A stretch of DNA of 64,000 nucleotides from Kribbella sp. VKM Ac-2568 (GTDB lineage Bacteria; Actinomycetota; Actinomycetes; Propionibacteriales; Kribbellaceae): the NCBI RefSeq assembly GCF_004345365.1, contig NZ_SLVF01000008.1:124001-188000 (forward strand), given 5' to 3'. The notes beneath the pieces are model-generated. The model was not told where the DNA came from. It worked only from the letters and a program-made list of their open reading frames with translations, and did not search any database. Position 1 is the stretch's first letter; each line of letters starts with the position of its first letter. The position numbers and the translations under genes were made by a program. Shown here piece by piece: positions 2,179 to 54,023 of this stretch.

Positions 2179-3882
2179 TTACCCGGTGGTGAACCGGCTG
2201 CCGGCGTCGAGGCCGGCCTGCTGCCACTCGCCGGCGCTGAACCACTGGCCGAACTTCTGGAACCGTTCGGCGCTCAGGCTGTCGAGCACATAGGTGTTGT
2301 CCTTCAGCACCACCTCTCCGCTCGGGATCACGGCGCCGGAGTTCTGCACCATGCCGGTCGCGGTGGTGCCGCCCTTCATGGTCACCTTGTTGCCGGTGAC
2401 GACGACGTCGCGGAGCACGTTCAGGCCCCACGGTCCATTGCCCCGGGTGCGGGACTGGATCGAGATGCCGTTCACGTTGTCCTCGACCGTGTTGTTGCGG
2501 ACCTGGACGTTCGACGAGGTGTTCACGTTGATGCCGCCGCCGTCCCACAGCGACCGGCCCGAGCCGCGTCCGGTGCCCAGGCCGTTGCCGGTGATGACGT
2601 TGTTCTCGATCACGCCGTTGCGGCCGATCTCGTAGCGGATCCCGTCGGCGGCGTTGTCGACGATCTGGTTGCCGCTGAACACCCGGCCGTCGTCGTACGC
2701 GTCGCTCCACAGGCCGACGCCGGTGTTGTTCTTGATCAGGTTGCCCGCCACCGAGCCGTTGGTGGACCAGGTCGTCTTGATCCCGCCGGACTCCCAGTCG
2801 GCGATCCAGAAGCCGTCGGTGTTGTTGTTGCTGACCTGGTTGTCCTTGATGGTGCCGTTCAGCGTGCTGTACTGCCCGACGCCGAGCTGTCCGTTGTACT
2901 GGATCAGGTTCTTCTCCAGAGTGGCGCCGTCGGCGTTGACGAGCATCGCGCCGACCGCGTGGTTCCAGCGGATGTCGTTGGCGAGGACCTTCCAGCCCGA
3001 GGCGAGCACGACGGCGCCGGACTGCGGGGCAGTGGCGAAGTGCTCCACGGTCAGGCCGCGCACCGTCACGCCACCCGCGTCGGATTCGATCGCGGTCTGC
3101 GTCTTCGACATCTCCACGGCCTGGCCCTGCGGGTTGTCACCCAGGAAGACCGCGTTCCCGGCATAGTCGGCGTAGAAGGTGCCCGGAGCAACCTTGTCCT
3201 GGCTGTTCACCCGCTTCAGGTGCTTGCCGTTGAAGAAGACCTGCTCGCGCAGGTAGCAGACGTTCGCGACGTTGTCCTCGCACTGGCCGGTCTGCCCGTA
3301 GGCGGCCGGCAGCACGCCCTTGATCACCCAGTCGCCGTTGCTCGCGGTCCAGCCGGTCAGCGGCACGGACCCGGTCAGTACGGCGCCATGGTCGCTGCCG
3401 AGCGTCGAGTTCGTCTTCGGGTGGATGGTGCGGCTGATCCGGTGCACGCCCGCTGCGAAGCAGTACGTCGTACCAGCCTGGCCCTTGTCCACCACGTCGG
3501 CGGCGTCCTGGTCCGGCGTGATCGTCACCCCTGTGCACGCGGGCGCCTGGGACGGACCGGCGGGGAAGCTGCCGGGGGCGGGCGTGGTCGGCTTCGGCGT
3601 GCTCGCCGGGGGCTTGGTCGGCGTCGGGGACTCCGTGGTGGGCTGCGCGGTCGGGGTGGTGGGCGGCCGGGTCGGGACCGGCGGCACGCTGGGCACGCTG
3701 ATGGTCGGCGTGGTCCGGGGGCGCGGCTTGTGCGGCCGGTCGCCGGGCAGCACGCCGGAGCCGACTACCTTGTCCTCGGGCCCGAAGGCCGAGGCCATGT
3801 TGGAACGGGTGCCGGCGACGATCCCGGTGATGGCGACCGCACCGGCTGCCGCGACAGAGATGATGGTCACTGACTTCTTCAC
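2179..3882 (-). CDS. Secreted right-handed parallel beta-helix protein, copy 1
   Basis: The start is a GTG at 3882 behind GGAGG, giving 567 residues; an upstream extension would lack this site. The protein opens VKKS followed by a hydrophobic segment (about residues 5-25: signal peptide or anchor). A long Pro/Thr-rich linker follows (about 45-110), then a Cys-containing start and a series of PbH1-type Asn-rich coils (NNT, NNV, NNTV) to the end. It resembles polysaccharide lyases and carbohydrate epimerases in fold, but I see no diagnostic catalytic motif, so the activity is unknown. It is a clear paralogue of the next minus-strand gene, which has 563 residues and near-identical stretches around residues 370-490. 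Both lie beside a glycosyltransferase locus, so a role on a surface polymer is plausible. Confidence 0.8.
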   Translation of the reverse strand: MKKSVTIISVAAAGAVAITGIVAGTRSNMASAFGPEDKVVGSGVLPGDRPHKPRPRTTPTISVPSVPPVPTRPPTTPTAQPTTESPTPTKPPASTPKPTTPAPGSFPAGPSQAPACTGVTITPDQDAADVVDKGQAGTTYCFAAGVHRISRTIHPKTNSTLGSDHGAVLTGSVPLTGWTASNGDWVIKGVLPAAYGQTGQCEDNVANVCYLREQVFFNGKHLKRVNSQDKVAPGTFYADYAGNAVFLGDNPQGQAVEMSKTQTAIESDAGGVTVRGLTVEHFATAPQSGAVVLASGWKVLANDIRWNHAVGAMLVNADGATLEKNLIQYNGQLGVGQYSTLNGTIKDNQVSNNNTDGFWIADWESGGIKTTWSTNGSVAGNLIKNNTGVGLWSDAYDDGRVFSGNQIVDNAADGIRYEIGRNGVIENNVITGNGLGTGRGSGRSLWDGGGINVNTSSNVQVRNNTVEDNVNGISIQSRTRGNGPWGLNVLRDVVVTGNKVTMKGGTTATGMVQNSGAVIPSGEVVLKDNTYVLDSLSAERFQKFGQWFSAGEWQQAGLDAGSRFTTG

Positions 3883-4202
3883 GTAGGGCCCTCCGGGGGT
3901 TCGGGTACTCCTTTGTGCACCCCCCTGGTGCGGCCTTCCCCAGAAGACTACTACTTCACGTAGTCGTGACAATGCGCAGAGTGGTTGCGCTTGCCCCCCG
4001 AATGCCGATCAGACCTCCCTGCTGAAGGGATATCGGCATTCTCCGAGTCGTTGCCCCAGGCGTGTATTGCACAAGGTCGTGGTCGGGTGCATCAATTGCG
4101 GTCGCGCTCAGTCATCGACATCGCGCTGCGTGACACGTGCGCTCGGTGTTCCGTGCGGACCGTGATACTTGCCCGGGGCATCGGGCTGGAGGTCGGTGCG
4201 GT
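3883..4202. other. 320-bp gap between the two beta-helix genes
   Basis: No coding signal is seen. The part next to copy 1 carries its ribosome-binding site (GGAGG at 3890-3894) and a small dyad GACTAC / GTAGTC (3946-3951 and 3960-3965) that could be an operator or part of the promoter. A larger hairpin (listed separately) lies near 4000-4041. The remainder up to 4202 shows nothing recognisable. Confidence 0.5.
4000..4041. terminator. Hairpin between the beta-helix paralogues
   Basis: GAATGCCGAT (4000-4009) pairs perfectly with ATCGGCATTC (4032-4041). Inside it TCCCT (4016-4020) pairs with AGGGA (4026-4030). It lies about 160 bp past the stop of copy 2 and 120 bp before the start of copy 1. 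It could end transcription from copy 2 or act as a regulatory dyad for copy 1. No T-run follows. Confidence 0.45.
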
Positions 4203-5894
4203 TCAGCTCGTCAGGAAGCTCCCCGCGGTGTCGAGGCCGGCGCGTTGCCAGCCGGTGGCGTTGAGCTTGGCGCCGAACCTGGCGAACCGCTGCGCGGAGG
4301 CCTTGTCCAGCAGGTACCGGTTGCCGCTGAAGGTGAGTTGCCCGGCGGGCACCTCGGCCCCGCTGTTCTGCACCATGCCGGTGGACTGGGTGCCACCCGT
4401 CATCCCGATCGTGTTGCCGGTGACGCGCACGTTGCGGAGCAGGTAGTGGCCCCACGGTCCGTCGCCCCGGTTCCGGGACTGGATCGACACGCCGTTCACG
4501 TTGCCGGTCACGGTGTTGTTCCGGACCTGCACATTCGAGGAGGTGTTGACGTTGATGCCGCCGCCGTCCCACAGCGAGGTGCCGGAACCACGTCCGGTGC
4601 CGAAGCCGTTGCCGGTGATCGTGTTGTGCTCGATCACGCCGTTGCGGCTGATCTCGAAGCGGATGCCGTCGGCGGCGTTGTTCGCGATCTTGTTCGAGCT
4701 GATCACCCGGCCGTCGTCGGCCACGTCCGCCCACATCCCGATGCCCTTGTTGGCCCGGATCACGTTGCCGCTGACGGTGCCGGAGGAGCGGGTCGACTTG
4801 ATCCCGCCGGACTCCCAGTCGGCGATCCAGAAGCCGTCGGTGTTGTTGTAGGTGATCACGTTGCGGGTCAGGTTCGCCTTGAGCGAGTTGTACTGCCCGA
4901 GACCGAGTTGGCCGTTGTGGTGCACCAGGTTGCGGTCGATCCGGGCTTTGTTCGCCTTGACCAGCATCAGACCGACCGACTTGTTCCAGCGCACCTCGTT
5001 GGCCGTGACGGTCCAGCCCGGACCGGAGACCAGGGCGCCGGCCTGGGCCGGGCTGGCGAAGTGCTCGATGGTCAGGCCGCGGACCGTGACGCCCGGCGCG
5101 TTCGACTCGATCGCGGTCGGCGTCTTCGACATCTCCACGGTGTGCCCGGCCGGGTTGCTGCCGAGGTAGATCGCGTCGGCGGCGTAGTCGGCGTAGAAGG
5201 TGCCGGACTTCACCGCTGCGAGGGAGGCGACCCGGGTGAGATGGGTGCCGTCCACAAAGACCTGCTCCCGCAGGCTGCAGATGTTCGCCGTGTCGTCCTC
5301 GCACTGCCCGCTCTTCCCGTACGCCGCCGGCAGCGCGCCGCGGGTGACCCAATGGGTGCCGGTCTTGCTCCAGCCGGTGAGGGGGACCGAGCCGGACAGG
5401 ACCGCGCGGGAGGCGCTGGCGATCGTCATGTCGGCCTTCGGCCGGATCGTCTGGCTGATCCGGTGCAGACCGGCGGCGAAGCAGAAGGTGGAGCCGGCCG
5501 GGCGCGCGTTGATCACCGACTGCGCGTCCTGGCCGGGCTTGATCACCACACCGCTGCAGGAGCCCGCGACAGCCGGACCCGCGTTGCCCTCACCCACGAC
5601 CGGCTGGGCAGGTCCGGCGGAGGTGGCGGTCTGCTTCGGCTTCGGGGCTTTGGCGGTGGTGGACGGGACCGGCTTCTTCGTCGGGCGGGCCGTCGGCGGC
5701 TTGCTCGAGATGGCGGCTGGAGGCTTGGTGGTCGGCTTGGTGAGGGGAATTCCTGAGCCGGCAGCGGACTTTTGCTCGATGTCGCGTGACTTGCCTGCGG
5801 ATGCCGCGTTCTTCAGGTGAGAGATGACTGGATAAGCCGCTGTAACGCCGACCACCGCCATCGCGATAACCGCTGCGAACCACAACTTCCTCAA
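4203..5894 (-). CDS. Secreted right-handed parallel beta-helix protein, copy 2
   Basis: The preferred start is a TTG at 5894, four bases behind GGAGGG, giving 563 residues. An in-frame ATG at 5924 would add ten residues ahead of the same hydrophobic segment. The order is LRKLW plus a membrane or signal segment (about 4-22), a Lys/Pro/Thr linker (about 35-90), a CSGVV..FCFAAG entry, then beta-helix coils. It shares with copy 1 the blocks NNTDGFWIADWESGGIK, NAADGIR and SLWDGGGINVNTSS. The N-terminal anchors and linkers differ strongly, so the conserved part is the extracellular helix. Its start region faces the divergent glycosyltransferase gene across 93 bp. The substrate is unknown. Confidence 0.8.
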   Translation of the reverse strand: MRKLWFAAVIAMAVVGVTAAYPVISHLKNAASAGKSRDIEQKSAAGSGIPLTKPTTKPPAAISSKPPTARPTKKPVPSTTAKAPKPKQTATSAGPAQPVVGEGNAGPAVAGSCSGVVIKPGQDAQSVINARPAGSTFCFAAGLHRISQTIRPKADMTIASASRAVLSGSVPLTGWSKTGTHWVTRGALPAAYGKSGQCEDDTANICSLREQVFVDGTHLTRVASLAAVKSGTFYADYAADAIYLGSNPAGHTVEMSKTPTAIESNAPGVTVRGLTIEHFASPAQAGALVSGPGWTVTANEVRWNKSVGLMLVKANKARIDRNLVHHNGQLGLGQYNSLKANLTRNVITYNNTDGFWIADWESGGIKSTRSSGTVSGNVIRANKGIGMWADVADDGRVISSNKIANNAADGIRFEISRNGVIEHNTITGNGFGTGRGSGTSLWDGGGINVNTSSNVQVRNNTVTGNVNGVSIQSRNRGDGPWGHYLLRNVRVTGNTIGMTGGTQSTGMVQNSGAEVPAGQLTFSGNRYLLDKASAQRFARFGAKLNATGWQRAGLDTAGSFLTS

Positions 5895-5987
5895 ATCACC
5901 CTCCGGGTGTGGCGGCGCCCGCATGTCTGCGCCGCAGGGGCGGTCCCACGAACCAGGTGTCACCACCGCGAGACTTAAGGTAGTGCC

Positions 5988-7178
5988 ATGCGGGTCGCCA
6001 TGTTGCACAACCGTTACCGTTCGGGTCAACCCAGTGGCGAGAACACGGTCGTCGATCAAACGGCTGATTTTTTGCGTGCCTCAGGACATGTCGTTGACCT
6101 CTACTCGCAGAACAGCGACGGAATCGCGCAAATGGGCCGGAAAGATCGCGCGCTGTTACCGCTTCGCTCCGTATGGTCATACTCCGCCGAACGCGATTTA
6201 ACATTCCGATTGCAGGCGCGACGTCCTGACGTCGTGCACGTGCACAACACCTTCCCGCTGTTCAGTCCCTCGGTACTGCGGGCCGCGCACCGGCTGGATC
6301 TCCCGGTGGTGGCCACGCTCCACAACTTCCGGCTGATGTGCGCCAACGCGGTCCTGCAGCGCGACGGTGGTCCGTGCGAGGACTGCGTCGGCCGGATCGC
6401 CTGGCGGGGCGTCCTGCACGGGTGCTACCGCGACTCGAAGGTGCAGAGCCTGCCGCTGGCGACCGGCATCAGCGTGCACAACTCACTGCACACCTGGCGG
6501 CGCTACGTCACCACCCTGGTGGCGCCGTCGGAGTTCGTCCGCTCCCGGTACGTCGCGGGCGGGTTCGACCCCGAGCAGATCGTGGTCAAGCCGCACGCGG
6601 TCCCGCAGACGGGCGCAGTACGGGAGGGTGCGGGTGACTCCGTGGTGTTCCTCGGCCGACTGCAGGAGGACAAGGGGTTCGCCGACCTCCTCCAGGCGTG
6701 GGACTCGTCGCTGGGGGAGTTGGTGGTGGTCGGCGACGGCCCGCTCCGCGGCGAGGCCGAGGCGCTGGCCCAGCGGGACCCGTCGGTCCGGGTGCTCGGG
6801 CAACTTCCCTGGGCCGACTGTATGGAGGTGCTCCGCTCCGCGCGCGTCGTCGTCGTACCTGCTCGTTCCTATGAGACGTTCGGTCTCGTGGTGGTGGAGG
6901 CGTTCGCGCACGGAGTACCGGTGGTCGCGTCCAGGATCGGAGCGCTGGCGGAACTGGTGGACGACGGAGAGACCGGCGCGCTGACCGAGCCGGGGGATCC
7001 GGACGGGCTGCGGAAGGCCCTCGGGTGGCTGGTAGACCCCGCCACTTCGATAGCCTGCGGGCAGCGAGCCCGACAGGTCTATCTCGACCGCTTCACCCCG
7101 GAGCGAGACCTGGAGGCCACGGAGAGGATCTACACCGATGCGATCGCCCGCCGAGCGGCCTACGGCCGGTCGCGCTAG
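5988..7178 (+). CDS. Glycosyltransferase family 4
   Basis: This 396-residue GT-B enzyme transfers a sugar from a nucleotide donor, at the cytoplasmic face, to a lipid or glycan acceptor. The N-terminal half shows HVHNTFP and a Cys pair C130/C133 (GPCEDC) followed by GCYRDS, a signature of one GT4 subgroup. The donor-side half has the FLGRL..DKGF strand and the E296-x7-E304 motif in YETFGLVVVEAF. The first 75 codons are unusually A/T-rich for this window and contain two TTA leucine codons (57 and 71), a hint of recombination or developmental control. It stands 160 bp before a coupled cytidylyltransferase/phosphotransferase unit and is divergent from the beta-helix genes. Acceptor and sugar are not predictable. 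Confidence 0.85.
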   Translation: MRVAMLHNRYRSGQPSGENTVVDQTADFLRASGHVVDLYSQNSDGIAQMGRKDRALLPLRSVWSYSAERDLTFRLQARRPDVVHVHNTFPLFSPSVLRAAHRLDLPVVATLHNFRLMCANAVLQRDGGPCEDCVGRIAWRGVLHGCYRDSKVQSLPLATGISVHNSLHTWRRYVTTLVAPSEFVRSRYVAGGFDPEQIVVKPHAVPQTGAVREGAGDSVVFLGRLQEDKGFADLLQAWDSSLGELVVVGDGPLRGEAEALAQRDPSVRVLGQLPWADCMEVLRSARVVVVPARSYETFGLVVVEAFAHGVPVVASRIGALAELVDDGETGALTEPGDPDGLRKALGWLVDPATSIACGQRARQVYLDRFTPERDLEATERIYTDAIARRAAYGRSR

Positions 7179-7197
7179 GCGGGCTGTGAGCGCGCGG

Positions 7198-7230
7198 TAT
7201 AAGGTCAGCGCTGACGTGGGGGGTCACGTC
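7198..7230 (+). promoter_or_regulatory. Possible promoter with two dyads before the cytidylyltransferase unit
   Basis: TATAAG (7198-7203) could be a -10 box. It touches a perfect 12-bp palindrome GTCAGCGCTGAC (7204-7215), which overlaps the dyad GACGTG / CACGTC (7213-7218 and 7225-7230). The position in the 160-bp gap ahead of the four-gene unit suggests an operator at the transcription start. No convincing -35 box is seen. Confidence 0.4.
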
Positions 7231-7338
7231 GGTCGTTGGTGGGGGCCGGTTGTCCGGGTGTTCACCGGCAGTTCGTCACGCAAAGAGTCGCCCTGGGGGC
7301 GCCGAAGGGTCCGCGAGGACTCACAGGGGGAGCAGAAG

Positions 7339-7767
7339 GTGCCGCAACGCATCGGATACCTGACCGGGGTCTTCGATCTGTTCCACGTCGGTCATCTCGA
7401 CGTGCTGGAACGGGCCAGGGAGAAATGCGACCGGCTGGTGGTGGGTGTGCTGACCGACGACTGGGCCGTGGACGCCTGGGGAGCGCGGCCGTTCGTGCCG
7501 CTGGTCGAGCGGGCGCAGATCCTCGAGCAGTTGCGCTGTGTCGACGAGGTGGTTGTGGTGGAAGGCGTCCAGCCCGAGTGGCTGATCGGCGTACTGGGGG
7601 TACGGACCGTGTTCGCTGCCAGTGGTACCGACGGCGTGCTGGGCGCCGACGAGCTCGACGGGATCCCCGCCGGGCTGGTCAGCACCTTGCCGGCCGGCCG
7701 GGGTTCCAGCAGCCAGATCCTGCGCGCTGCGATCGACCAGCGACAGTCGCGCAGCTCCGTCGCATGA
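7339..7767 (+). CDS. TagD-like cytidylyltransferase 1
   Basis: The GTG at 7339 follows GGGGGAG and leads straight into the nucleotidyltransferase motif; the open frame further upstream is probably not translated. The 142-residue protein has GVFDLFHVGH with the H16-x2-H19 signature of CTP-dependent transferases such as glycerol-3-phosphate and ethanolamine-phosphate cytidylyltransferases. The C-terminal GSSSQIL stands where the family has its ISTS-type motif. It probably makes a CDP-activated alcohol or polyol. The stop overlaps the CDP-alcohol phosphotransferase start (ATGA), implying that the product is used by that enzyme. The exact alcohol (glycerol, ribitol, inositol, amino-alcohol) is unresolved. 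Confidence 0.8.
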   Translation: MPQRIGYLTGVFDLFHVGHLDVLERAREKCDRLVVGVLTDDWAVDAWGARPFVPLVERAQILEQLRCVDEVVVVEGVQPEWLIGVLGVRTVFAASGTDGVLGADELDGIPAGLVSTLPAGRGSSSQILRAAIDQRQSRSSVA

Positions 7768-8510
7768 CGCGCCGCTCCCTCGGCGACGTCGTCGCCGAGC
7801 TGGCCCGAGCCCAGAAGTCTTCGGCCGGCACGCCGGCGTACTCACGGTTCGTCAACCGGCGGATCGGCCGGTACCTGGCCGCCGCCGCGTTCCTGGCCGG
7901 CCGTACGCCGAACCAGGTCAGCCTGGCCAGCGGGTTCTGCTCGCTGATCGGCATCGTGCTGATCGCGCTGGTCGAGCCCAGCCTGCCGCTCGCGCTGGTG
8001 GTGACGGCCCTGCTGGTACTGGGCTACGCCCTGGACTCCGCTGACGGGCAGCTGGCCCGGTTGCGCGGTGGCGGGTCGCCGCTGGGGGAGTGGCTCGACC
8101 ACATGATCGACTGCGTGAAGGTCGCGCTGCTGCACAGCGCGGTGCTGATCTCGCTCTACCGCTTCGATGCCCTGAGCAACGAGCTGGTGCTGCTCATCCC
8201 GCTGGCCTACCTGTGCGTGTCCACGGTGATGTTCTTCGGGCTGATCCTGATCGACCAGCTCCGCCGCCGGCACGGTGGCGCGAAGCCCAACGTGCGCGGG
8301 GACTCCGTCGTCAAGTCGTTGCTGATCGCACCGACCGACTACGGCATCCTCTGCCTGGTCTTCCTCGCCTTCGGCCGGCCCTCGCTGTTCATCGTCCTGT
8401 ACGCCGCGATGCTGGCGGCGAACCTGGTCTTCCTGCTCGCCGCGATCGCCAAGTGGTACCGCGAGATGGCCGCGCTGCAGCCCGCCGCCCGCGTCGAGGT
8501 ACAGGGCTGA
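7764..8510 (+). CDS. CDP-alcohol phosphatidyltransferase family protein
   Basis: This 248-residue membrane enzyme carries the complete family motif D91-x2-D94-G-x2-A-R-x8-G108-x3-D112-x3-D116, the di-metal site that displaces CMP from a CDP-alcohol. About six hydrophobic helices are visible, mostly after residue 60. The family makes phosphodiesters, either phospholipid headgroups from CDP-diacylglycerol or soluble products such as di-myo-inositol phosphate. It overlaps both neighbours (4 bp upstream, 1 bp downstream), each a cytidylyltransferase. A CDP-polyol donor is therefore more likely than ordinary phospholipid synthesis. The N-terminal 45 residues are basic and cytosolic. Confidence 0.85.
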   Translation: MTRRSLGDVVAELARAQKSSAGTPAYSRFVNRRIGRYLAAAAFLAGRTPNQVSLASGFCSLIGIVLIALVEPSLPLALVVTALLVLGYALDSADGQLARLRGGGSPLGEWLDHMIDCVKVALLHSAVLISLYRFDALSNELVLLIPLAYLCVSTVMFFGLILIDQLRRRHGGAKPNVRGDSVVKSLLIAPTDYGILCLVFLAFGRPSLFIVLYAAMLAANLVFLLAAIAKWYREMAALQPAARVEVQG

Positions 8511-8923
8511 TGGGCGTCGTCGGCTACGCCCCCGGGGTGTACGACATGTTCCATATCGGCCACCTGAACATCCTGCGGAGGGCAAGCGAGCATTGCGACT
8601 TCCTGATCGCAGGTGTGGTCGAGGACGACGTGGTGACCCGGATCAAGGGCCGGCCGCCGGTGGTGCCGCACCACGAGCGGATGGAGGTCGTCCAGGCGAT
8701 CGGCCTGGTCGACCAGGTGGTCAGCGACTGGTCCAGCGACAAGTTCGAGATGTGGAAGCAGTTGCGCTACGACGTGCTCTTCAAGGGCGATGACTGGAAG
8801 GGCACCGAGAAGGGGACCCGGCTGGAGAAGCTGCTCGGCGAGGTCGGTGCCGGCGTGCACTACTTTCCGTACACGGCCTCCACCTCGAGCACCGATCTGC
8901 GCAGGCTGCTGGAGGGAACGTGA
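8510..8923 (+). CDS. TagD-like cytidylyltransferase 2
   Basis: The 137-residue protein matches glycerol-3-phosphate cytidylyltransferase length. It shows GVYDMFHIGH (H15-x2-H18), the RIKGRPPVVPHHERM loop, the KGDDWKGTEK segment typical of TagD-like enzymes and a C-terminal TSSTDLR signature. The ATG overlaps the preceding TGA by one base. Two distinct cytidylyltransferases flanking one phosphotransferase is unusual. Either two CDP-alcohols are used, or one enzyme feeds this pathway and the other a neighbouring transferase. Confidence 0.82.
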   Translation: MGVVGYAPGVYDMFHIGHLNILRRASEHCDFLIAGVVEDDVVTRIKGRPPVVPHHERMEVVQAIGLVDQVVSDWSSDKFEMWKQLRYDVLFKGDDWKGTEKGTRLEKLLGEVGAGVHYFPYTASTSSTDLRRLLEGT

Positions 8924-10113
8924 CGGTGACCCGGCCGAAGATCCTGCTCAGCGCCTACGCCTGCCGCCCGAAGGGTGGGTCCGAGCCGGGTGCCGGCTGG
9001 GCCTGGGCGAAGGCCGCCGCGCGCGACCACGACGTCTGGCTGCTGACCCGCGGCAAGTTCGCGCACGAGATCGCCGAGGAACTCGCGATCCGCCCGGTGC
9101 CGTCGTTGACGGTGGTGCCGCTCGAGCTGCCGAAGTGGGTGCTGAAGCTGCGGCGCCGACCGGCCGACGTGTACTGGTACTACCCGTTGTGGCAGCGACT
9201 CGCCGGGCGCACGGCCCGGCGGCTGCACGCGCAGTACTCGTTCGACGTGATCCACCACCTGACCTTCGCGGTCGACTGGATGTCCGCGGGCGTGGTCCGG
9301 CCCTCCTCGGCGAAGGTGATCTGGGGTCCGGTCGGGGGATCGACCTCGGCGCCGCTGCCGATGGCGCACTGGCTCGGCCCGCGCGGTGTGTCGGCAGAGC
9401 TGGTACGCCGGGCCTACACCGGGATGCTCCGCAAGGTGATCGGCCGGAAGCTTGCCCAGAGCGCCGATCTGGTGGTTGCCCAGAACAAGGATGTCGCCGA
9501 GGAGTTCAAGGACTCCGCGGCGGAGGTGGTCGTCGAGCCGAACGTGGCGATCAGCCGCTTCGCCACCGCCAGTGGGCCGCGTGAACCCTATGGTGCCCCG
9601 GGCGTCAAGACCGCGCTGTTCGTCGGCCGGCTGATCCCGTGGAAGGGGTTGCTGATGGCGATCAGCGCCCTGGCCCGCCCGGAAGCCGCGGGGTGGGAGC
9701 TCCGGGTGATCGGCGACGGTCCCGACTGGCGCCGCGCCGAACGCCTCGCCGAGAACCTCGGCATCCGCGATCGCGTCGAGTTCGTCGGCCAACTCCCGCG
9801 CGAAGAGGTCCTGGACGCTCTCCTGCGCGCGGACGCTCTCCTGGCACCCGCCATGCGCGAAGCAGCCGGCTGGGCTGTCGCCGAGGCTCTCGCCAGCGGT
9901 TGCCCGGTGGTCTGCCTCGACCGAGGCGGCCCCTCGGTGATCGTCGGCCCCGAAGACGGAGCCGTCGTCTCCTGGCGCGGTGACGTAGTCGGCGAACTGG
10001 CCAAGGGCCTCGCCGGTCTCCACGGCCGCATCGAGCCCGTCAACCGCTGGTCCCCGGAACGCCTCCCCGAGGTCCTCGCCACCTTCTACGCGCCAACCCG
10101 CGTCGCCAAGTGA
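8920..10113 (+). CDS. Glycosyltransferase family 4, second copy in the locus
   Basis: The GTG start overlaps the previous stop (GTGA) and lies three bases after GGAGGG; the product has 397 residues. The N-terminal GGSEPGAGWAWA loop is typical of GT4 enzymes. IWGPVGG, FVGRLIPWKG and the donor-binding E314-x7-E322 (EAAGWAVAE) are also present. It is only distantly similar to the first glycosyltransferase and lacks its Cys pair. As last gene of the coupled unit it probably decorates or extends the phosphodiester-containing product made upstream. Donor and acceptor cannot be read from sequence. Confidence 0.85.
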   Translation: MTVTRPKILLSAYACRPKGGSEPGAGWAWAKAAARDHDVWLLTRGKFAHEIAEELAIRPVPSLTVVPLELPKWVLKLRRRPADVYWYYPLWQRLAGRTARRLHAQYSFDVIHHLTFAVDWMSAGVVRPSSAKVIWGPVGGSTSAPLPMAHWLGPRGVSAELVRRAYTGMLRKVIGRKLAQSADLVVAQNKDVAEEFKDSAAEVVVEPNVAISRFATASGPREPYGAPGVKTALFVGRLIPWKGLLMAISALARPEAAGWELRVIGDGPDWRRAERLAENLGIRDRVEFVGQLPREEVLDALLRADALLAPAMREAAGWAVAEALASGCPVVCLDRGGPSVIVGPEDGAVVSWRGDVVGELAKGLAGLHGRIEPVNRWSPERLPEVLATFYAPTRVAK

Positions 10114-11517: not shown

Positions 11518-12393
11518 ATGAACGTCGTCGGCTCCGCGGCAGAGCTCGCCGAGCGATTGCGCGGAACCGGGTACCTCGCCGATGACGGCCTGGCCACGGT
11601 CGGCTACCTGGCGCTCGTGCTGGACCGGCCGCTGCTGCTGGAGGGCGAGCCGGGCACCGGCAAGACCTCCCTCGCCGAGGCCATCGCCCTTGCGCTCGGG
11701 CTGCCGCTGATCCGGCTCCAGTGCTACGAGGGCATCGACGCCTCGCAGGCGCTGTACGACTGGGACTTCCCGCGGCAGATCCTGCACCTGCGCACAGTCG
11801 AGGCGACCGGGAAGGGCGCGAAGGTCGAGGACGTCGAGAAGTCCCTCTTCGACGAGCGCTTCCTGCTCGCCCGGCCCGTACTGCGTGCCCTCCGCGAAAG
11901 CCCGGCCGTCCTCCTGGTGGACGAGATCGACCGCTCCGACGACGAGTTCGAGGCGTTCCTGCTGGAGGTCCTCTCGACCCACGAGGTGACGATCCCCGAA
12001 CTCGGCACGGTCGCCGCGAAGGTGCCGCCGATCGTCGTGCTCACCTCCAACCGGACCCGCGAGGTGCACGACGCGCTGAAGCGCCGCTGCCTGTACCACT
12101 GGATCGACCACCCCGGTCTGGAGCGCGAGGTCGAGATCGTCCGGACCAGGCTGCCGGAGGTGTCCGCACGGCTGGCCGAGCAGGTCGCGCGGTCGGTCCA
12201 GCGGATGCGCGAACTGGACCTGCTCAAGCCGCCCGGCGTCGCGGAGACGCTCGACTGGGCCCGGGCGCTCGACGCGCTCGGCACGGACACCCTCGACGTC
12301 CAGGCCGCGGCGGCGACGCTCGGGGCGGTGCTCAAGTACCGGGAGGACACCGACCGGGTCCGGGAATCACTGGACCGGCTGCTGGCGAGCTGA
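11518..12393 (+). CDS. coxD: MoxR-type AAA ATPase of the CODH maturation set
   Basis: The 291-residue product has Walker A GEPGTGKT (43-50), Walker B LLVDEID (132-138) and arginine-rich sensor regions of MoxR AAA proteins. CoxD-type members help assemble or sulfurate the CuMo or Mo active site of CO dehydrogenase, together with the VWA protein CoxE encoded next. The ATG was chosen because the MoxR fold begins right after it; a long open frame upstream antisense to nadA is a shadow. The gap to coxE is 5 bp. Confidence 0.88.
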   Translation: MNVVGSAAELAERLRGTGYLADDGLATVGYLALVLDRPLLLEGEPGTGKTSLAEAIALALGLPLIRLQCYEGIDASQALYDWDFPRQILHLRTVEATGKGAKVEDVEKSLFDERFLLARPVLRALRESPAVLLVDEIDRSDDEFEAFLLEVLSTHEVTIPELGTVAAKVPPIVVLTSNRTREVHDALKRRCLYHWIDHPGLEREVEIVRTRLPEVSARLAEQVARSVQRMRELDLLKPPGVAETLDWARALDALGTDTLDVQAAAATLGAVLKYREDTDRVRESLDRLLAS

Positions 12394-12398
12394 CTGCC

Positions 12399-13508
12399 AT
12401 GACGATCCGCGGCCCGGACCCATCTCCCGACCACCTGCTGGTCGGCTTCGGTTCCGCGCTGCGGCACGCGGGCCTGGCGGTGACGGCCGACCGGGTGCAG
12501 GTCTTCCTGCGCGCCGTGGCCGCACTCGATGCGGGCGTCGCCGCCGACGTCTACTGGGCCGGCCGGGCCGCCCTGTGCAGTGGTCCGGACGACACCGCCC
12601 GGTACGACGAGGTGTTCGCCGCCTGGTTCTCCGGCGATCTCCCGCGGACCGCGCAGCGGCCGCGCCCCGCCGCGACCACCTTGCAGGCCGGGCTCGAGTC
12701 ACCGGATACCGATGCCGATGGCAACGACCGGTCGATCGCGGTGGCCGCGAGCCAGACCGAGATCCTCCGGCACCGCGACGTCGCCGAGCTCTCCGCCGCC
12801 GACCGCGCCGAACTCGTCCGGCAGTTCGCGACCCTGAGACCGCGAGCCCCGGTACGGCGTGGAGCCCGGCGACGGCCGTCCAACCGGGGCGAGATCGACC
12901 CGCGACGCACCCTGCGGGCCCAGCTCCGCCAGGTCGGCGAACCTGCTCGCGTGCTCTACCGGCGCCGCGGCACCAGACCTCGCCGGGTCGTCCTGCTCAT
13001 CGACGTGTCCGGCTCGATGCGCCCGTACGCCGACAGCCTGCTCCGGTTGGCTCACTCGCTGGTCCGGGTGGCCCCGCGCCAGGTGGAGGTGTTCACCGTC
13101 GGCACCCGGCTCACCCGCGTGACGCCCGCGCTGCGGCACCGCGACCCGGAGTACGCGCTGAGGCTGGCAGGCGACGTCGTACCGGACTGGTCGGGAGGCA
13201 CTCGGCTCGGTGAGGTGCTGAAGGTGTTCCTGGATCGCTGGGGTCAGCGTGGAACCGCCCGCCGGGCCGTCGTGGTGGTGTGCAGCGACGGGTGGGAACG
13301 CGGCGACACCGCGTTGCTGGGGGAGCAGCTGCGCAGACTGGCGGGACTGGCGCACCGGGTGGTCTGGCTCAACCCTCATCGCGGCAAGCCCGGCTATCTG
13401 CCTGTCCAGGCGGGGATCGTGGCTGTGCTGCCCTATCTGGACGACCTGATCGCGGGGCACAGCCTGGCCAGCTTCGCGGATCTTCTGGAGGTGGTGGCGG
13501 ATGCGTGA
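12399..13508 (+). CDS. coxE: VWA domain protein, CoxE family
   Basis: The 369-residue protein has an alpha-helical N-terminal half, an Arg-rich stretch (about 145-195) and a C-terminal von Willebrand A domain. Its metal-binding D202-V-S204-G-S206 (MIDAS) stands after the VVLLI strand. CoxE pairs with the MoxR ATPase to mature the molybdenum hydroxylase. It lies 5 bp after coxD and its end overlaps the XdhC-like gene by 8 bp, so the three are one unit. Confidence 0.88.
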   Translation: MTIRGPDPSPDHLLVGFGSALRHAGLAVTADRVQVFLRAVAALDAGVAADVYWAGRAALCSGPDDTARYDEVFAAWFSGDLPRTAQRPRPAATTLQAGLESPDTDADGNDRSIAVAASQTEILRHRDVAELSAADRAELVRQFATLRPRAPVRRGARRRPSNRGEIDPRRTLRAQLRQVGEPARVLYRRRGTRPRRVVLLIDVSGSMRPYADSLLRLAHSLVRVAPRQVEVFTVGTRLTRVTPALRHRDPEYALRLAGDVVPDWSGGTRLGEVLKVFLDRWGQRGTARRAVVVVCSDGWERGDTALLGEQLRRLAGLAHRVVWLNPHRGKPGYLPVQAGIVAVLPYLDDLIAGHSLASFADLLEVVADA

Positions 13509-14622
13509 CGTTCTGGATCAGCTGGTGAGGTGGTGGAGCGCCGGCCATCCGGTTGCCGTCGGCACCGTTGTCGCGACGTTCGAGTCCGCGCCGCGGCCAC
13601 CGGGCGCGATGATGTTGGTCGGCCCGGGTGGCGAGGCTGTCGGCAGCGTGTCGGGCGGCTGCGTCGAGGGCGCGGTCTACCAGCTCGGCGAGGAGATCCT
13701 GGCGGCGGGCGAGCCGGTGCTGCAACGGTACGGCGTGAGCGACGAGTCGGCCTTCGCCGTCGGGCTCACCTGCGGCGGGATCCTGGACATCTTCGTCGAG
13801 CGGGTCGATCAGGCGTCGTTCCCGGAACTGGGCGAGGTGGCCGCCGACATCGCCGCCGGCCGCCCGGTCGCGGTGGCGACCGTGGTCGCACACCCCGACG
13901 CGTCCCGGGTCGGCCGCCGGTTGGTGGTGCGACCGCAGGGGCAGCCGACGGCCGGCAGCCTCGGGTCGGAGCGGTCCGACGCCGCGGTGGCCGACGACGG
14001 GCGCGGGCTGCTCGCGACCGGCCGGACGGAGACGCTGGAGTACGGGCCGGACGGGCAGCGCCGGGGTGAGGGGATGCGGGTCTTCGTCGCGTCGTACGCC
14101 CCGGTGCCGCGGCTGCTGGTCTTCGGGGCGATCGACTTCGCGGCGGCGGTGGCGAAGCTCGGCTCGTTCCTCGGCTACCGGGTGACCGTCTGCGACGCGC
14201 GCGGTGTCTTCGCGACGGCGTCGAGGTTCCCGTCGGCCGACGAGGTGGTGGTCGACTGGCCGCACCGATACCTGACCGCCGAGGTGGCCGCCGGGCGGGT
14301 CGACTCCCGGACCGTCGTCTGCGTGCTCACCCACGACCCGAAGTTCGACGTACCGCTGCTGGAGGTGGCGCTCCGGCTGCCCGATCTCGCGTACGTCGGG
14401 GCGATGGGCTCGCGCAGAACCCACGACGACCGGCTGAAACGGCTCCGCGAGGCCGGGCTGACCGAGCCCGAACTGGCCCGGCTCGCGAGCCCGATCGGGC
14501 TGGACCTGGGCGCCCGGACCCCGGAGGAGACGGCGGTCAGCATCGCGGCCGAGATCATCGCGCTGCGCTGGGGTGGGGCCGGCGACCGGTTGTCAGCGCA
14601 GGCCGGGTCCATCCACCACTGA
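13501..14622 (+). CDS. coxF: XdhC/CoxF family maturation factor
   Basis: XdhC-type proteins bind the molybdenum cofactor, protect it during sulfuration and deliver it to xanthine-dehydrogenase-like enzymes. The 373-residue product has the N-terminal XdhC/CoxI segment with SVSGGC (C54). A Rossmann half follows ([20 protein letters not shown], about 203-222), with [14 protein letters not shown] near the C-terminus. The start overlaps coxE by 8 bp. It is followed by an 83-bp gap with its own candidate control site before coxS. Confidence 0.87.
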
Positions 14623-14633
14623 TTCCCTCCCTT

Positions 14634-14647
14634 GTGGTGCGCGTCAC
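14634..14647 (+). promoter_or_regulatory. Shared 14-bp motif, copy before coxS
   Basis: GTGGTGCGCGTCAC lies 58 bp before the coxS start and matches 13 of 14 bases of the copy before coxD (11431-11444). Both copies are followed at similar distance by CACGAT. This suggests a second promoter that lets the structural genes be expressed with the maturation genes. Confidence 0.5.
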
Positions 14648-14705
14648 ACCAGGCGCACGATCGGAGGACATCGGCACTGCTCATTGTCATTGTCTGGAGG
14701 CTGGG

Positions 14706-15176
14706 ATGTCCCGGATCACAGTGAAGGTCGACGGAGGCGGCTACACGGACGACGTGGAGCCTCGCACGCTGCTCGTGCACTATCTGCGCGAACAGCTGGG
14801 AAAGACCGGCACCGTGGTCGGCTGTGACACCGGCAACTGCGGCGCCTGCACGGTGCTTCTCGACGGGCGGAGCGTGAAGTCCTGCTCGATGTTCGCGGTC
14901 CAGGCCGACGGACACGAGATCACCACGATCGAGGGGCTCGCGACCGACGGGCAGTTGCACCCGATGCAGCAGGCCTTCCACGAGAACCACGCGTTGCAGT
15001 GCGGCTACTGCACGCCCGGCATGATCATGCAGTCGATCGACCTGCTGGCCGACAATCCCGACCCGACCGACGACGAGGTCCGGCTCGGGCTGGAGGGCAA
15101 CCTCTGCCGGTGCACGGGCTACCAGAACATCGTCCGGGCGGTCCGCGCGGCCGCCGCCGCGGGAGGTGCGCGATGA
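14706..15176 (+). CDS. coxS: CODH-like small subunit, two [2Fe-2S] clusters
   Basis: The 156-residue ferredoxin subunit carries C40-x4-C45-x2-C48-x11-C60 for the plant-type cluster. C99-x2-C102 with C134-x-C136 hold the second cluster (GYCTPG, CRCTGYQ). It passes electrons from the molybdenum site to FAD. GGAGG stands 5 bases before the ATG. Its end overlaps coxL by 4 bp. The S-L-M order that begins here is that of form II cox clusters. Confidence 0.93.
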
Positions 15177-17557
15177 CCACCACCCAGGAGCGGCCGGCCG
15201 CCGAGGTCGGCAATCCGCGCCGGCGCAAGGAGGACGCCCGCCTGATCACCGGCCGGACCCGCTGGACCGACAACGTGGTCCTACCCGGCATGTTGCATCT
15301 GGCAATGGTCCGCAGCCCGTTCGCGCACGCCCGGATCACCGGGATCGACACCGAGGCGGCGAGGTCGTCGTCCGGAGTCGTCGCGGTACTGACCGGGGCC
15401 GACCTGGCCGAGGAGCAGGGCGGGCTGCCGTTCGCCTGGACGGCCACGCCGGAGCAGAAGGCGCCGGCCCACCCGTCCATCGCGGTCGACACGGTGAACT
15501 TCGCCGCCGAGATCGTGGCCGTGGTGGTGGCCCGGTCGGCCGCCGAGGCCAACGACGCGGCAGATCTCGTCGACGTCGACTACGAGGAGCTCCCGGCGGC
15601 ACTGGACTTGAAGGCGGCGGCCGCCGACGAGGTGCTCGCGCATCCCGATCTGGGCACCAACGTGTCGGCCCGGTTCAACTTCGACTCCGCCGAGGCGGGC
15701 ACCGGCGGGGATGTCGACGCCGCGATCGCGGCGGCCCGGGACGGCGGCATCGTGATCGAGCGCGAGTACCGCCAGCAGCGGTTGATCCCGGCGTTCATGG
15801 AGCCGCGGTCGATCGTGGCCGATCCGACCGGTGAGCAGCTGACGGTGTGGTCCTCGACCCAGGTCCCGCACTTCGTCAAGATCTTCATCGCGCTGGTGCT
15901 CGGCATCCCCGAGCACAAGATCCGGGTGATCGCCCCCGACGTCGGCGGCGGCTTCGGCGGCAAGCTGCAGTTCACCCCCGAAGAGGTGCTGACCGTGATC
16001 GCGGCCCGGCGCACCGGCAAGCCCTGCAAGTACTCCGAGACCCGTTCGGAGTCGCTGCAGGCCGCCCACCACGGCCGGGACCAGTGGCAGAAACTCACCC
16101 TCGCGGCGGACCGCGACGGCACCGTCAGGGGACTCAAGGTCGAGCTGCTCGCGAACATGGGGGCCTACCTCGGCCTCGTGTCGGCGGGCATCCCGATCCT
16201 CGGTGCGTTCATGTACAACGGCATCTACAAGTTCCCGGCCTACCGGCTGACTTGCACCAACGTCTTCACCAACAAGACCTGGACCGACGCGTACCGCGGC
16301 GCCGGCCGGCCGGAGGCGACCTTCGCGGTCGAGCGGCTGATGGACGAGCTCGCGGCCGAGGTCGGGGTCGATCCGCTGGAGATCCGCGAGCGGAACTGGA
16401 TCAAGCACGAGGAGTTCCCGTTCACGACGGTGTCGGGCATGCACTACGACTCGGGCAACTACGAGGCGGCGACCGCGAAAGCCAAGGGCCTTTTCGGGTA
16501 CGACGACCTGCGCGCCGAGCAGCAGAGACGCCGCGAGTCGGGGGACCCGGTCCAGCTCGGGATCGGCATCTCGACGTACACGGAGATGTGTGGGCTGGCC
16601 CCATCGCGCTGGCTCGGCTCGATGGGCTACGTCGGTGGCGGCTGGGAGCACGCGTCGATCCGGATGCTGCCGACAGGCAAGGTCGAGGTGATCACCGGCA
16701 CCAGCCCGCACGGTCAGGGACACGAGACCGCGTGGAGCCAGATCGTGGCCGACCGGCTGGGCGTTCCCTTCGAGGATGTCGAAGTGCTGCACGGGGACAC
16801 GCAGGTCTCGGCCCGGGGCCTGGACACCTACGGGTCGAGATCGCTGGCCATCGGCGGGATGGCGGTGCTCGCGGCGGCCGACAAGGTGATCGAGAAGGCC
16901 AAACCGATCGCGGCCCAGTTGCTCGAGGCCAACGCCGACGACCTCGAGTACACCGGCGGGCGGTTCGGAGTCCGGGGTACCGAAGCGGGGATGAGCCTTG
17001 CCGAACTCGCTTTCGCGGTGTTCCAGGGACACAAGCTGGACGGCGGCGCGGAGCGCTCGCTCGACGCCGACGCCACCCTCGAACCGGACGACTTCTCCTT
17101 CCCGCACGGCACCCATCTGTGCGCGGCGGAGGTCGACACCGAGACGGGCGCGGTGACGATCCGCTCGTACGTGAGCGTCGACGACGTGGGCAACGTGATC
17201 AACCCGGTGATCGTCGAAGGGCAGGTGCACGGCGGTGTCGCGCAGGGCATCGGGCAGGCGCTGTTCGAGGAAGCGGTGCACGACGAATCCGGCACCTTGG
17301 TGACCGGCTCGTTCGACGCGTATCTGGTGGCGGCGGCACCGGATCTGCCGTCGTTCGTGACGGCGCGCACCGAGACCCCGGCGACGACGAACCAGCTCGG
17401 CGTGAAGGGTGTCGGCGAGGCGGGCACGATCGCCTCCACCCCGGCCGTGGTCAACGCGGTCGTCGACGCGGTCCGCCATCTCGGGGTGTCCGACGTCGAG
17501 ATGCCCTGTACGCCGTACCGGGTCTGGAAAGCCTTGCAGGAAGGGGCGAAATCATGA
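15173..17557 (+). CDS. coxL: CODH-like molybdopterin large subunit, form II
   Basis: The 794-residue catalytic subunit binds molybdopterin cytosine dinucleotide and belongs to the xanthine oxidase family. The active-site loop reads AYRGAGR (373-379), the form II (BMS) signature, and not the AYRCSFR of proven form I CO dehydrogenases, so the Cys that carries Cu is absent. The conserved active-site Glu is E749 in GVGEAGT. GGGFGGK, the cofactor loop, stands near residue 262. CO oxidation is therefore not assured; other carbonyl or N-heterocyclic substrates are possible. It is coupled to coxS and coxM by 4-bp overlaps. Confidence 0.93.
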
Positions 17558-18408
17558 TTCCGGCAGCGTTCGACTACTACGCGCCCACGTCGGTGGACGA
17601 GGCGCTCGCCCTGCTGCGCGAGCATGACGACGCCAAGGTGCTGGCCGGCGGCCAGAGCCTGATGCCGGTACTGCGGTTGCGCCTGGCGGCGCCCGAGGTG
17701 ATCGTCGACCTCGGGCGGATCGAGGCGCTGCGCGGGATCCGCGACGACGGCGAGGCACTGGTGATCGGCGCGATGACGCCGCACAGCGTGGTCCAGGCCG
17801 ACCCGTCGATCGCCGAGCACGCGAAGCTGATCTCGCTCGCGGCCGCCGCGATCGGCGATCCGCAGGTGCGTCACCGCGGCACCTTCGGGGGATCGCTGGC
17901 GCATGCCGATCCGGCGGCCGACCTGCCGGCGGTGGTGGTCGCGCTCGACGCGGAGATGGTGATCCAGGGTCCGGACGGTCGCCGTACGGTCGGTGCCGCG
18001 GACTTCTTCGAGGGCGTGTTCACCACGACCCTCAGCGAGGACGAGTTGCTCGTCGAGATCCGCGTCCCGAAGTACACCGGCTGGGGCGCGCACTACGAGA
18101 AGTTCAGCCGGGTCGCGCAGCAGTGGCCGATCGTGGCGGTCGCGGCCGCCGTACGGCTGGACGGAGGGACGATCGCGGAGGCGCGGGTGGGGCTGTCCAA
18201 CATGGGGTCGATCCCGATCCGGGCGACGGCGGTCGAGCAGGCACTCGTCGGTCAGCCGGCTACGGCCGAGGCGGTCCGGGCGGCCGCGGCCCGCGCCGCC
18301 GACGGGACCTCGCCGCCGACGGATCTCAACGGCGATGCGGAGTACCGCAGGCACCTCGCCTCGGTGCTCACCCGGCGGGCGGTCCTGAGCGCGGCAGGCG
18401 CTGGATGA
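17554..18408 (+). CDS. coxM: CODH-like FAD-binding medium subunit
   Basis: The 284-residue flavoprotein passes electrons from the [2Fe-2S] subunit to the acceptor. AGGQSLMP (about 32-39) and GGSLAHADPAADLP (about 110-123) are the FAD-binding motifs of this family. The C-terminal CO_deh_flav_C-like domain (about 175-280) is complete. The ATG overlaps the coxL stop and its own stop overlaps coxG. Confidence 0.92.
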   Translation: MIPAAFDYYAPTSVDEALALLREHDDAKVLAGGQSLMPVLRLRLAAPEVIVDLGRIEALRGIRDDGEALVIGAMTPHSVVQADPSIAEHAKLISLAAAAIGDPQVRHRGTFGGSLAHADPAADLPAVVVALDAEMVIQGPDGRRTVGAADFFEGVFTTTLSEDELLVEIRVPKYTGWGAHYEKFSRVAQQWPIVAVAAAVRLDGGTIAEARVGLSNMGSIPIRATAVEQALVGQPATAEAVRAAAARAADGTSPPTDLNGDAEYRRHLASVLTRRAVLSAAGAG

Positions 18409-19085
18409 AGCTCGAGCACCGCTTCGTCGTACCGGTGCCGGTCGAGCAGGCCTGGGTCGCGTTCAACGACCTCGAACGGGTGGTGCCGTGTTTCCCCGGC
18501 GCCACCCTGACGTCGTGCGACGATGTCGCGTTCGCCGGGTCGTGCAAGGTGAAGCTCGGCCCGGTGGCGTTGCAGTACACCGGGACCGGCACCTTCGTCG
18601 AGCGCGACCCGGCGAACCACAGCGCCGTACTCGAGGCCAAGGGCAAGGATCGGCGCGGCAACGGCACCGCGACCGCCCGGGTGACCGCGCAACTGACGCC
18701 GACCGGTGACGCGGCCACCGAGGTGACGGTCGACACCGACCTGGTCATCACCGGCCGCCCGGCCCAGTTCGGCCGCGGCCTGATCCAGGAGGTCTCCGAC
18801 AAGCTCCTGGACCAGTTCGTCGACTACCTGACCGTCCAGCTGGCAACTCCGATCGAGCCGGCGAGCCCGGCCGAATCAGCGAGCCCTGCCGAACCGGTGA
18901 GTCCGGCCGCGCCCACGCCACCCACGCCACCCAGGCCGCCGACGCCCTCGCCCGGTCCCGCGCCTTCTTCCGAGGCCTCCCTGAACCTCGCCTCCACCCT
19001 GCTCCCGGCCGTGGCCAAACGCGTCGCCCCCTACTTGATCGGCGCCGCCGTGGCTCTCCTTCTCCGTCGGCTCCTGCGCCGCTGA
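18405..19085 (+). CDS. coxG: CoxG-like SRPBCC protein with C-terminal membrane anchor
   Basis: Residues 1-145 form the CoxG/SRPBCC fold, starting MKLEHRFVVPVPVEQAW. A linker of repeated Pro/Ala/Ser (about 147-190) leads to a hydrophobic C-terminal segment (about 203-222) ending in Arg. CoxG is thought to tether CO dehydrogenase to the cytoplasmic membrane, and the tail here fits that. It overlaps coxM by 4 bp and is the last gene of the cluster. A 74-bp gap without obvious terminator follows. Confidence 0.88.
   Translation: MKLEHRFVVPVPVEQAWVAFNDLERVVPCFPGATLTSCDDVAFAGSCKVKLGPVALQYTGTGTFVERDPANHSAVLEAKGKDRRGNGTATARVTAQLTPTGDAATEVTVDTDLVITGRPAQFGRGLIQEVSDKLLDQFVDYLTVQLATPIEPASPAESASPAEPVSPAAPTPPTPPRPPTPSPGPAPSSEASLNLASTLLPAVAKRVAPYLIGAAVALLLRRLLRR

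Positions 19086-48290: not shown

Positions 48291-54023
<5,733 letters not shown>

Follow-up and report, generated by a model that had tools for sequence, protein, structure and literature searches.

What does a bacterium make with a locus in which the gene for a CDP-alcohol phosphotransferase lies between two cytidylyltransferase-like genes, beside glycosyltransferase genes and a pair of beta-helix genes? Such a locus occupies positions 2179-10113 of the stretch of Kribbella sp. VKM Ac-2568 DNA analysed here (the window: 64,000 nucleotides, bases 124001-188000 of contig 8 of an 8.9-Mb genome). A first-pass annotation, made from the sequence letters, had read it as a surface-glycan locus with a phospho-alcohol step. 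We find it probable that the locus forms one half of a Wzx/Wzy-type system, providing its phospho-alcohol step and glycosyltransferases, with the priming, Wzz and Wzy genes upstream of the window. One of the two cytidylyltransferases is, as judged from its residues, a conserved pseudoenzyme, and there is good reason to regard the beta-helix proteins as distant retaining glycosidases of the GH120 type.

All seven genes named in the first-pass annotation were found where it had placed them. Four genes on the forward strand overlap one another: CT1 (7339-7767) overlaps the phosphotransferase gene CPT (7764-8510) by 4 bp (7764-7767), CPT overlaps the second cytidylyltransferase gene CT2 (8510-8923) by 1 bp (8510), and CT2 overlaps GT4b (8920-10113) by 4 bp (8920-8923), in agreement with the 1-4 bp noted earlier. 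GT4a (5988-7178, forward strand) precedes them, and the two beta-helix genes, BH1 (2179-3882) and BH2 (4203-5924), are on the reverse strand, divergent from the transferase genes; that they are paralogues, as had been proposed, is borne out by an identity of 56%. GT4a and GT4b encode GT4-family glycosyltransferases (PF13692, 9.8e-31, and PF00534, 4.9e-27, respectively). The gene starts were set partly by judgement. The likely start of CT1 is the GTG at 7339, preceded by GGGGGAG and lying 160 bp after the end of GT4a (7178), and the open reading frame (ORF) listed from 7138 is over-long; BH1 and BH2 likely start near 3882 and 5924, not at the TTG starts of their ORFs.

Conservation of the locus and its polysaccharide neighbours

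Of the 37 genus genomes, 34 have a strong match to CPT. The gene-neighbourhood comparison that the first-pass annotation had called for showed the full order BH1<BH2<GT4a>CT1>CPT>CT2>GT4b> in 30 of the 33 genus loci fetched beyond the window, the departures being one locus without BH2 (L037), one that ends at the end of its contig (L068) and one that is rearranged (L048, genome G028). The order is not due to chance. GT4a adjoins the beta-helix genes throughout the genus, the position of GT4b is conserved, and the usual flanks are a UxuB-like gene upstream (on the BH1 side, in most loci) and NadA downstream. What is more, CPT, a near CT1, a close BH protein (at least 51% identity) and the polymerase Wzy are common to the same 34 of the 37 genomes and are missing from G008, G024 and G027, of which G027 retains one distant BH copy (40% identity) and G008 one weak match to the CT1 query (9.5e-9). 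The proposed link of beta-helix genes to the transferase is thus upheld within the genus, with BH proteins in 34/34 genomes having CPT. Among 21 genomes searched from the rest of the order, none gave a Wzy orthologue. The nearest named CPT relatives (79-86% identity) are from Kribbella records and from one record of the same genus titled Streptomyces. This record, Streptomyces sp. SID13031 (L102, NZ_JAAGLV010000023.1), falls in the genus of the window, and its name looks wrong.

A polysaccharide island is located on the same contig, 7.7-24 kb before the first base of the window. It contains a Bac_transf gene (contig 99802-101406), an NAD-dependent epimerase, a GDP-mannose dehydratase, a WecG/TagA/CpsF transferase matching PF03808, a flippase-like protein, three secreted beta-propeller proteins (two with a LamG domain), Wzz, Wzy_C and a third beta-helix gene, BH3, ending at contig position 116325. 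The scores and cut-offs in bits are 225.6 and 27 for the priming transferase (PF02397), 37.2 and 25.5 for Wzz (PF02706), and 34.6 and 31.7 for Wzy (PF04932). The epimerase is nearest to GDP-L-fucose synthase but scores below the NCBI cut-off (459 of 500 bits). The flippase-like protein (L192:6144-7400; 418 residues) has about six hydrophobic segments and gave no Pfam or NCBIfam match. The combination by which we recognise a Wzx/Wzy locus, a priming transferase with Wzz and Wzy, is therefore present, in the upstream island. The earlier statement that there was no polymerase or flippase is correct for the window as far as blastp of its called genes against labelled neighbours covers it, but not for the genome: the polymerase went unseen because its gene lies outside the window. 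In the 20 genus genomes for which the upstream 20 kb was fetched, Wzz, Wzy and BH3 are beside the locus in all 20, the flippase-like gene in 19 and a PF02397 homologue (Bac_transf) in 16. There are three Bac_transf genes in the 8.9-Mb genome, and if this number is typical, one would occur by chance in fewer than 1% of 20-kb stretches.

Between the island and BH1 lies a glucuronate-catabolism operon (L067:6850-15998; contig 8 116850-125998), comprising a glucuronate isomerase, a LacI-type regulator, an ABC transporter, ManD and a UxuB-like dehydrogenase; its end, with the last two genes, occupies positions 1-2178 of the window on the forward strand. The isomerase and ManD both exceed their score cut-offs. 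The position of this operon between the two polysaccharide halves suggests possible recycling of a uronate-containing polymer.

The association of CPT with polysaccharide genes extends beyond the genus. The CPT protein has about six hydrophobic segments and matches PF01066 (34.1 bits, cut-off 22). Its D-x2-D-G-x2-A-R motif is intact, as had been noted, and continues as x8-G-x3-D-x3-D, completing the CDP-alcohol signature (residues 91-116). In a scan of named genomes, at least 557 of 597 candidate stretches encoded a CPT relative, and the best 80 were taken further; 77 loci were analysed, 72 (the window included) with a called CPT and five with none. With close kin among them, these loci do not count as independent. 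The full motif is present in 71 of the 72 called CPTs, the sole exception being a truncated call. The neighbours in these 72 loci include a DUF1972-GT4 glycosyltransferase (49), LamG/PKD proteins (46), another GT4 (43), Bac_transf (35), a called cytidylyltransferase (at least 39), a beta-helix protein (15, of which 13 are outside the genus) and Wzz (13). The cytidylyltransferase count is a lower bound because the gene caller missed those of L185 and of a Frankia metagenome-assembled genome (MAG), the latter a CT1 recovered by tblastn. The DUF1972 glycosyltransferase, the commonest neighbour elsewhere, has no match in the genome of the window.

CT2 and CPT might instead make a phospholipid (from diacylglycerol, in a Kennedy-like route) or a soluble phosphodiester resembling di-myo-inositol phosphate, with the polysaccharide genes as incidental neighbours. 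The named families nearest to CPT are indeed of this kind, namely the phosphatidylinositol-phosphate (31.7 bits, cut-off 170), archaetidylinositol-phosphate (44.6, cut-off 180) and di-inositol-phosphate (24.5, cut-off 580) synthases, and the best solved relative is AF2299 (6.1e-8), followed by a PIPS fusion and cholinephosphotransferases. CPT falls far below the cut-off of every named equivalog scored. It has PF01066 and the signature motif in common with its solved relatives, which are distant, and belongs to an actinobacterial group found in polysaccharide loci. Against incidental neighbours speak Bac_transf or Wzz in 39/72 CPT loci, DUF1972-GT4 in 49/72, and the joint presence or absence of CPT and Wzy in the genus, and we regard this alternative as unlikely.

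Several observations weigh against assigning the locus to a Wzx/Wzy-type system. The catabolic operon puts some 9-10 kb between island and locus, so that their co-operation is deduced from conservation. In 11 of the 72 loci, the window among them, the stretch read has no gene labelled as priming, Wzz, polymerase-like or flippase-like, and outside the genome of the window the latter two labels rest on counts of hydrophobic segments, not on Pfam. Close kinship is also possible among the three genomes of the genus that lack the locus. Finally, a second cluster of beta-helix, GT4 and membrane-protein genes in the same genome has no CPT or cytidylyltransferase among its called genes, so that CPT is not the only company in which beta-helix genes occur. 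This second cluster (contig 8 68598-78181; L190 and the start of L191) also has a Bac_transf gene; its GT4 is 40% identical to GT4a of G028, and its membrane protein has 10 segments.

The cytidylyltransferase-like proteins on either side of CPT

The first-pass annotation counted two different cytidylyltransferases. For CT1, a protein of 142 residues that matches PF01467 (scanned as the longer ORF, 7138-7767), this is not supported, as neither the catalytic lysine nor the GDDW motif is found in any aligned copy. Twelve loci (that of the window, those of G028 and G037, eight from Actinomadura and one from a MAG) have a called cytidylyltransferase immediately upstream of CPT; in these proteins the lysine is lost in 12/12, with arginine in its place in one, and GDDW in 12/12. 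The 39 other cytidylyltransferases, which are of the CT2 type, keep the lysine in every case and GDDW in all but one, which has GSDW. The 12 CT1 rows form one side of a branch with support 99/99. In a thirteenth copy, that of the Frankia MAG, the lysine and GDDW are likewise gone and asparagine replaces the first histidine of HxGH; the copy of G037 has lost HxGH. The weight of such residues can be gauged from a study of Plasmodium CCT (PMC6060094), where replacing Lys663 by Ala reduced a kcat of 1.45 per s to 0.0008, and replacing one or the other of two helix alpha-E threonines reduced it to 0.0010.

The fold is retained. The AlphaFold2 model of CT1 (pLDDT 88) superposes on the S. aureus glycerol-3-phosphate cytidylyltransferase 2b7l with a Z-score of 16.9 and a root-mean-square deviation (rmsd) of 2.0 over 112 residues, and gives Z-scores of 16-17 against TagD/TarD structures. 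The median dN/dS (406 pairs, 29 Kribbella sequences) is 0.25 for CT1, 0.09 for CT2 and 0.22 for CPT; a value of 0.25 indicates purifying selection and therefore that CT1 is maintained. From the loss of residues, the kept fold and purifying selection together, we infer that CT1 is a non-catalytic partner. It would most likely be a heterodimer subunit or a tether for CT2 or CPT. An RxVDEVV-like stretch retained in CT1 resembles the RYVDEVI dimer motif of TagD, which PMC8262930 describes beside HxGH, RTxGISTT and Lys44/Lys46. The C-terminal tail of CT1, ILRAAIDQRQSRSSVA (window 7717-7764), hardly varies within the genus. Its SVA end is found again in 7/8 Actinomadura copies, in one MAG and in the Frankia MAG, while the preceding stretch varies. 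We considered the tail as a nucleotide signal and rejected this, since synonymous differences are present (by eye), and its conservation is accordingly read as lying at the level of the protein.

A point against a non-catalytic CT1 is that HxGH is kept in the genus, so that another activity is possible. CT1 could itself be active, on another substrate or nucleotide than CT2, and so provide CPT with a second activated alcohol; that HxGH is kept in Actinomadura as well, that the dN/dS of CT1 is near that of CPT and that one of the 12 copies has arginine at the lysine position would all fit. We consider this quite improbable in view of the loss of lysine and GDDW from all aligned copies, the alteration of TSST in most, the damage to HxGH in the Frankia MAG and G037, and an insertion in the copy of G030 (L063:10344-10856), which places 35 low-complexity residues in the middle of the domain.

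CT2, also a PF01467 protein, is of the TagD/ECT/Fom1 type (ECT, ethanolamine-phosphate cytidylyltransferase), and its catalytic residues HxGH, Lys, GDDW and TSST are all present. Its occurrence follows that of CPT. In a phylum sample of 396 genomes, 28 match the CPT profile at 1e-12, eight of them strongly (at least 192 bits), and CT2 (1e-30) was found in nine genomes, namely 8/8 with strong CPT and 1/388 of the others (Fisher 6e-16, not corrected for kinship). We also searched 22 further CPT genomes with no called cytidylyltransferase beside CPT, corresponding to 20 of the 33 such loci with a called CPT and two of the five without. CT2 was detected in 21 of these 22 (one match being partial), and in 19 of the 21 it shares the contig of CPT at a distance of 11-29 kb (median 17 kb), a little outside the flanks initially read. 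This pairing is weakened by four points. Twenty phylum-sample genomes with weak CPT matches (69 bits or less) were counted as lacking CPT; scoring was confined to the few best candidates of each genome; five of the eight strong-CPT genomes share one genus code (g11), and with such possible kinship the independent events are fewer than the genomes; and no match to CT2 was obtained in one of the 22 further genomes, which is a MAG.

Among solved structures, CT2 is matched best by ECT (3elb; 9.4e-20, in two stretches) and then by the cytidylyltransferase domain of Fom1 (5x3d; 2.2e-12), followed by two glycerol-3-phosphate cytidylyltransferases (2.4e-10 and 7.4e-9). ECT carries two cytidylyltransferase domains in a single chain, a formal parallel to CT1 plus CT2, which here are separate genes flanking the transferase. 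The TagD/TarD enzymes (1coz, 2b7l) match both CT2 and CT1 and have HxGH in common with them. CT2, however, has PYT..TSST and, like Fom1, no Arg of the RTxGISTT motif, CT1 is without Lys and GDDW, and both proteins score far below the TIGR01518 cut-off (56.1 bits for CT2 and 42.0 for CT1, of 165.4). The missing Arg and the low TIGR01518 score of CT2 also count against the reading, since CDP-glycerol as its product is not assured; glycerol 3-phosphate and phosphoethanolamine are our leading guesses for its substrate. A phosphonate route, suggested by the likeness of CT2 to Fom1, was rejected, as no phosphoenolpyruvate mutase over the cut-off was found in the genome (three weak matches of 28.1-39.7 bits, cut-off 319.55).

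The genome has an orphan TagF-like gene (contig 3 410998-412101; L226, L227; PF04464, 375.9 bits), which faintly suggests that the organism makes CDP-glycerol. It would be conceivable that CT2 chiefly supplies CDP-glycerol to this teichoic-acid polymerase and that CPT uses another donor, the more so as the 20 kb around the TagF-like gene holds no credible cytidylyltransferase (one 40-residue match at 3e-4, no profile match) and as the CT1 query, at an E-value of 1e-8, matches nothing in the genome besides CT1 and CT2. Such a division is very improbable, given that CPT and CT2 overlap by 1 bp, co-occur across the phylum and, in 19 further genomes, lie near each other on one contig. Nor is there a TagF-like polymerase at the locus itself, the contig 3 gene being the sole PF04464 match in the genome, and no characterised teichoic-acid or phospholipid pathway with the same gene order was found in the open-access library searched.

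The beta-helix proteins

BH1 and BH2 belong to PF13229 (1.8e-23 and 1.3e-34, respectively). BH1 is predicted to be a secreted right-handed beta-helix, with a signal-like N-terminus (by eye), and BH2, which has a long Pro/Thr-rich linker, to be secreted or membrane-anchored. The earlier proposal that these proteins bind or cut the product can be narrowed to probable cutting, on the evidence of a profile, a Foldseek search and the residues of the active site. A profile built from 19 BH sequences matched the GH120 enzyme XylC (5.9e-9), followed by the glycoside hydrolase BT_1002 (0.0028) and AlgE4 (0.0066). The AlphaFold2 model of BH2 (pLDDT 77.4, with residues 8-105 under 50) retrieved XylC (3vst) first in Foldseek, with an E-value of 3.5e-14 and about 15% identity over the alignment, and XylC and BT_1002 (5mqp) are the best matches of the family in both searches. 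In the printed profile alignment the W-x-D and E of the BH proteins fall, by counting, on W380, D382 and E405 of XylC, and D400 and E424 of BH2 align with 382 and 405. Asp382 of XylC is the nucleophile and Glu405 the acid/base, according to PMC8954004. BH1 also has the presumed active-site K, W, D and E, and BH2 residues K376, W398, D400 and E424 are kept in 32/32 BH genes aligned (37 rows, five genes being entered twice). Since the fold alone does not settle the class of an enzyme, we relied on this alignment of residues. With the Asp/Glu pair in place, and with the linker and the low identity as the differences from XylC, the BH proteins are likely to be distant GH120-type retaining glycosidases.

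Two results weigh against this assignment: the stretch of the alignment with the catalytic pair scores 12 bits by itself, and VIA ranks AlgE6 first for the BH2 model (Z 35.8), with XylC absent among the 50 matches listed. The BH proteins could accordingly be polysaccharide lyases, C5-epimerases or non-enzymatic adhesins. AlgE6 and AlgE4 lead in VIA with Z-scores of 35-36 and an rmsd of 2.6-2.8 over 318-325 residues, PL6 lyases follow at Z-scores of about 30-31, and the adjacent glucuronate-catabolism operon would fit a uronate-containing polymer. On the other hand, Tyr149, Asp152 and His154 of AlgE, which we take to be its catalytic residues, fall on V, M and V in the BH profile alignment, and equivalents of the lysine of the XylC GIK motif, W380, D382 and E405 are present in 32/32 BH genes, which makes this alternative somewhat unlikely.

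A possible pathway and its setting

The neighbours of CPT loci and the joint presence of CPT and Wzy favour the surface-glycan locus with a phospho-alcohol step that the first-pass annotation had envisaged, and we think the following division of roles reasonably probable. CT2 would couple CTP to an alcohol phosphate, giving a CDP-alcohol. CPT, in the membrane, would act on the cytoplasmic face and pass the phospho-alcohol to an undecaprenyl-linked oligosaccharide assembled with the help of GT4a, GT4b and the WecG-type enzyme. The decorated unit would then be flipped, polymerised by Wzy under the control of Wzz, and exposed. CT1, held directly upstream of CPT, would support CT2 or CPT non-catalytically, and the exported BH1, BH2 and BH3 may trim or release the polymer.

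With known Wzx/Wzy exopolysaccharide loci this arrangement has in common the priming transferase, the WecG-type glycosyltransferase, Wzz, Wzy and the flippase-like protein, all in the upstream island. It differs in the addition of CPT, CT2 and a pseudo-cytidylyltransferase and in the sugar-catabolism operon that splits the system. Phosphodiester-linked alcohols alter how a bacterial surface is charged and recognised, and there are few systems in which the enzymes that add them are known; other phospho-alcohol routes use LicD, TagF or periplasmic lipid-dependent transferases. Among the papers listed from the open-access library searched, none was found to describe a Wzx/Wzy locus with a CDP-alcohol transferase, a polysaccharide locus with a pseudo-cytidylyltransferase, a pathway with this gene combination, or the chemistry of Kribbella glycans. 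One of these searches had a single match, a paper on Bacteroidetes inositol lipids (PMC9246714).

More tentatively, the locus could represent a cytoplasmic route to the phospho-alcohol decoration of surface polysaccharides, widespread in actinobacteria and based on CPT, in which one lineage has split the cytidylyltransferase into an active and a dead protein, with GH120-like enzymes dedicated to the decorated polymer. A CPT group found in the polysaccharide loci of many actinobacterial genera, with one co-occurring cytidylyltransferase, offers a direct biochemical entry; the conserved, apparently dead CT1 is a testable case of a pseudoenzyme, and the GH120-like BH proteins might serve as tools with which to cut the polymer.

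Two further features of the window were noted. The genes at 11518-19085, downstream of the locus, resemble by eye a MoxR/VWA plus molybdenum hydroxylase (CO-dehydrogenase-like) cluster, and positions 48291-53981 of the reverse strand hold a single very long ORF of 1896 residues with a secretion-like N-terminus.

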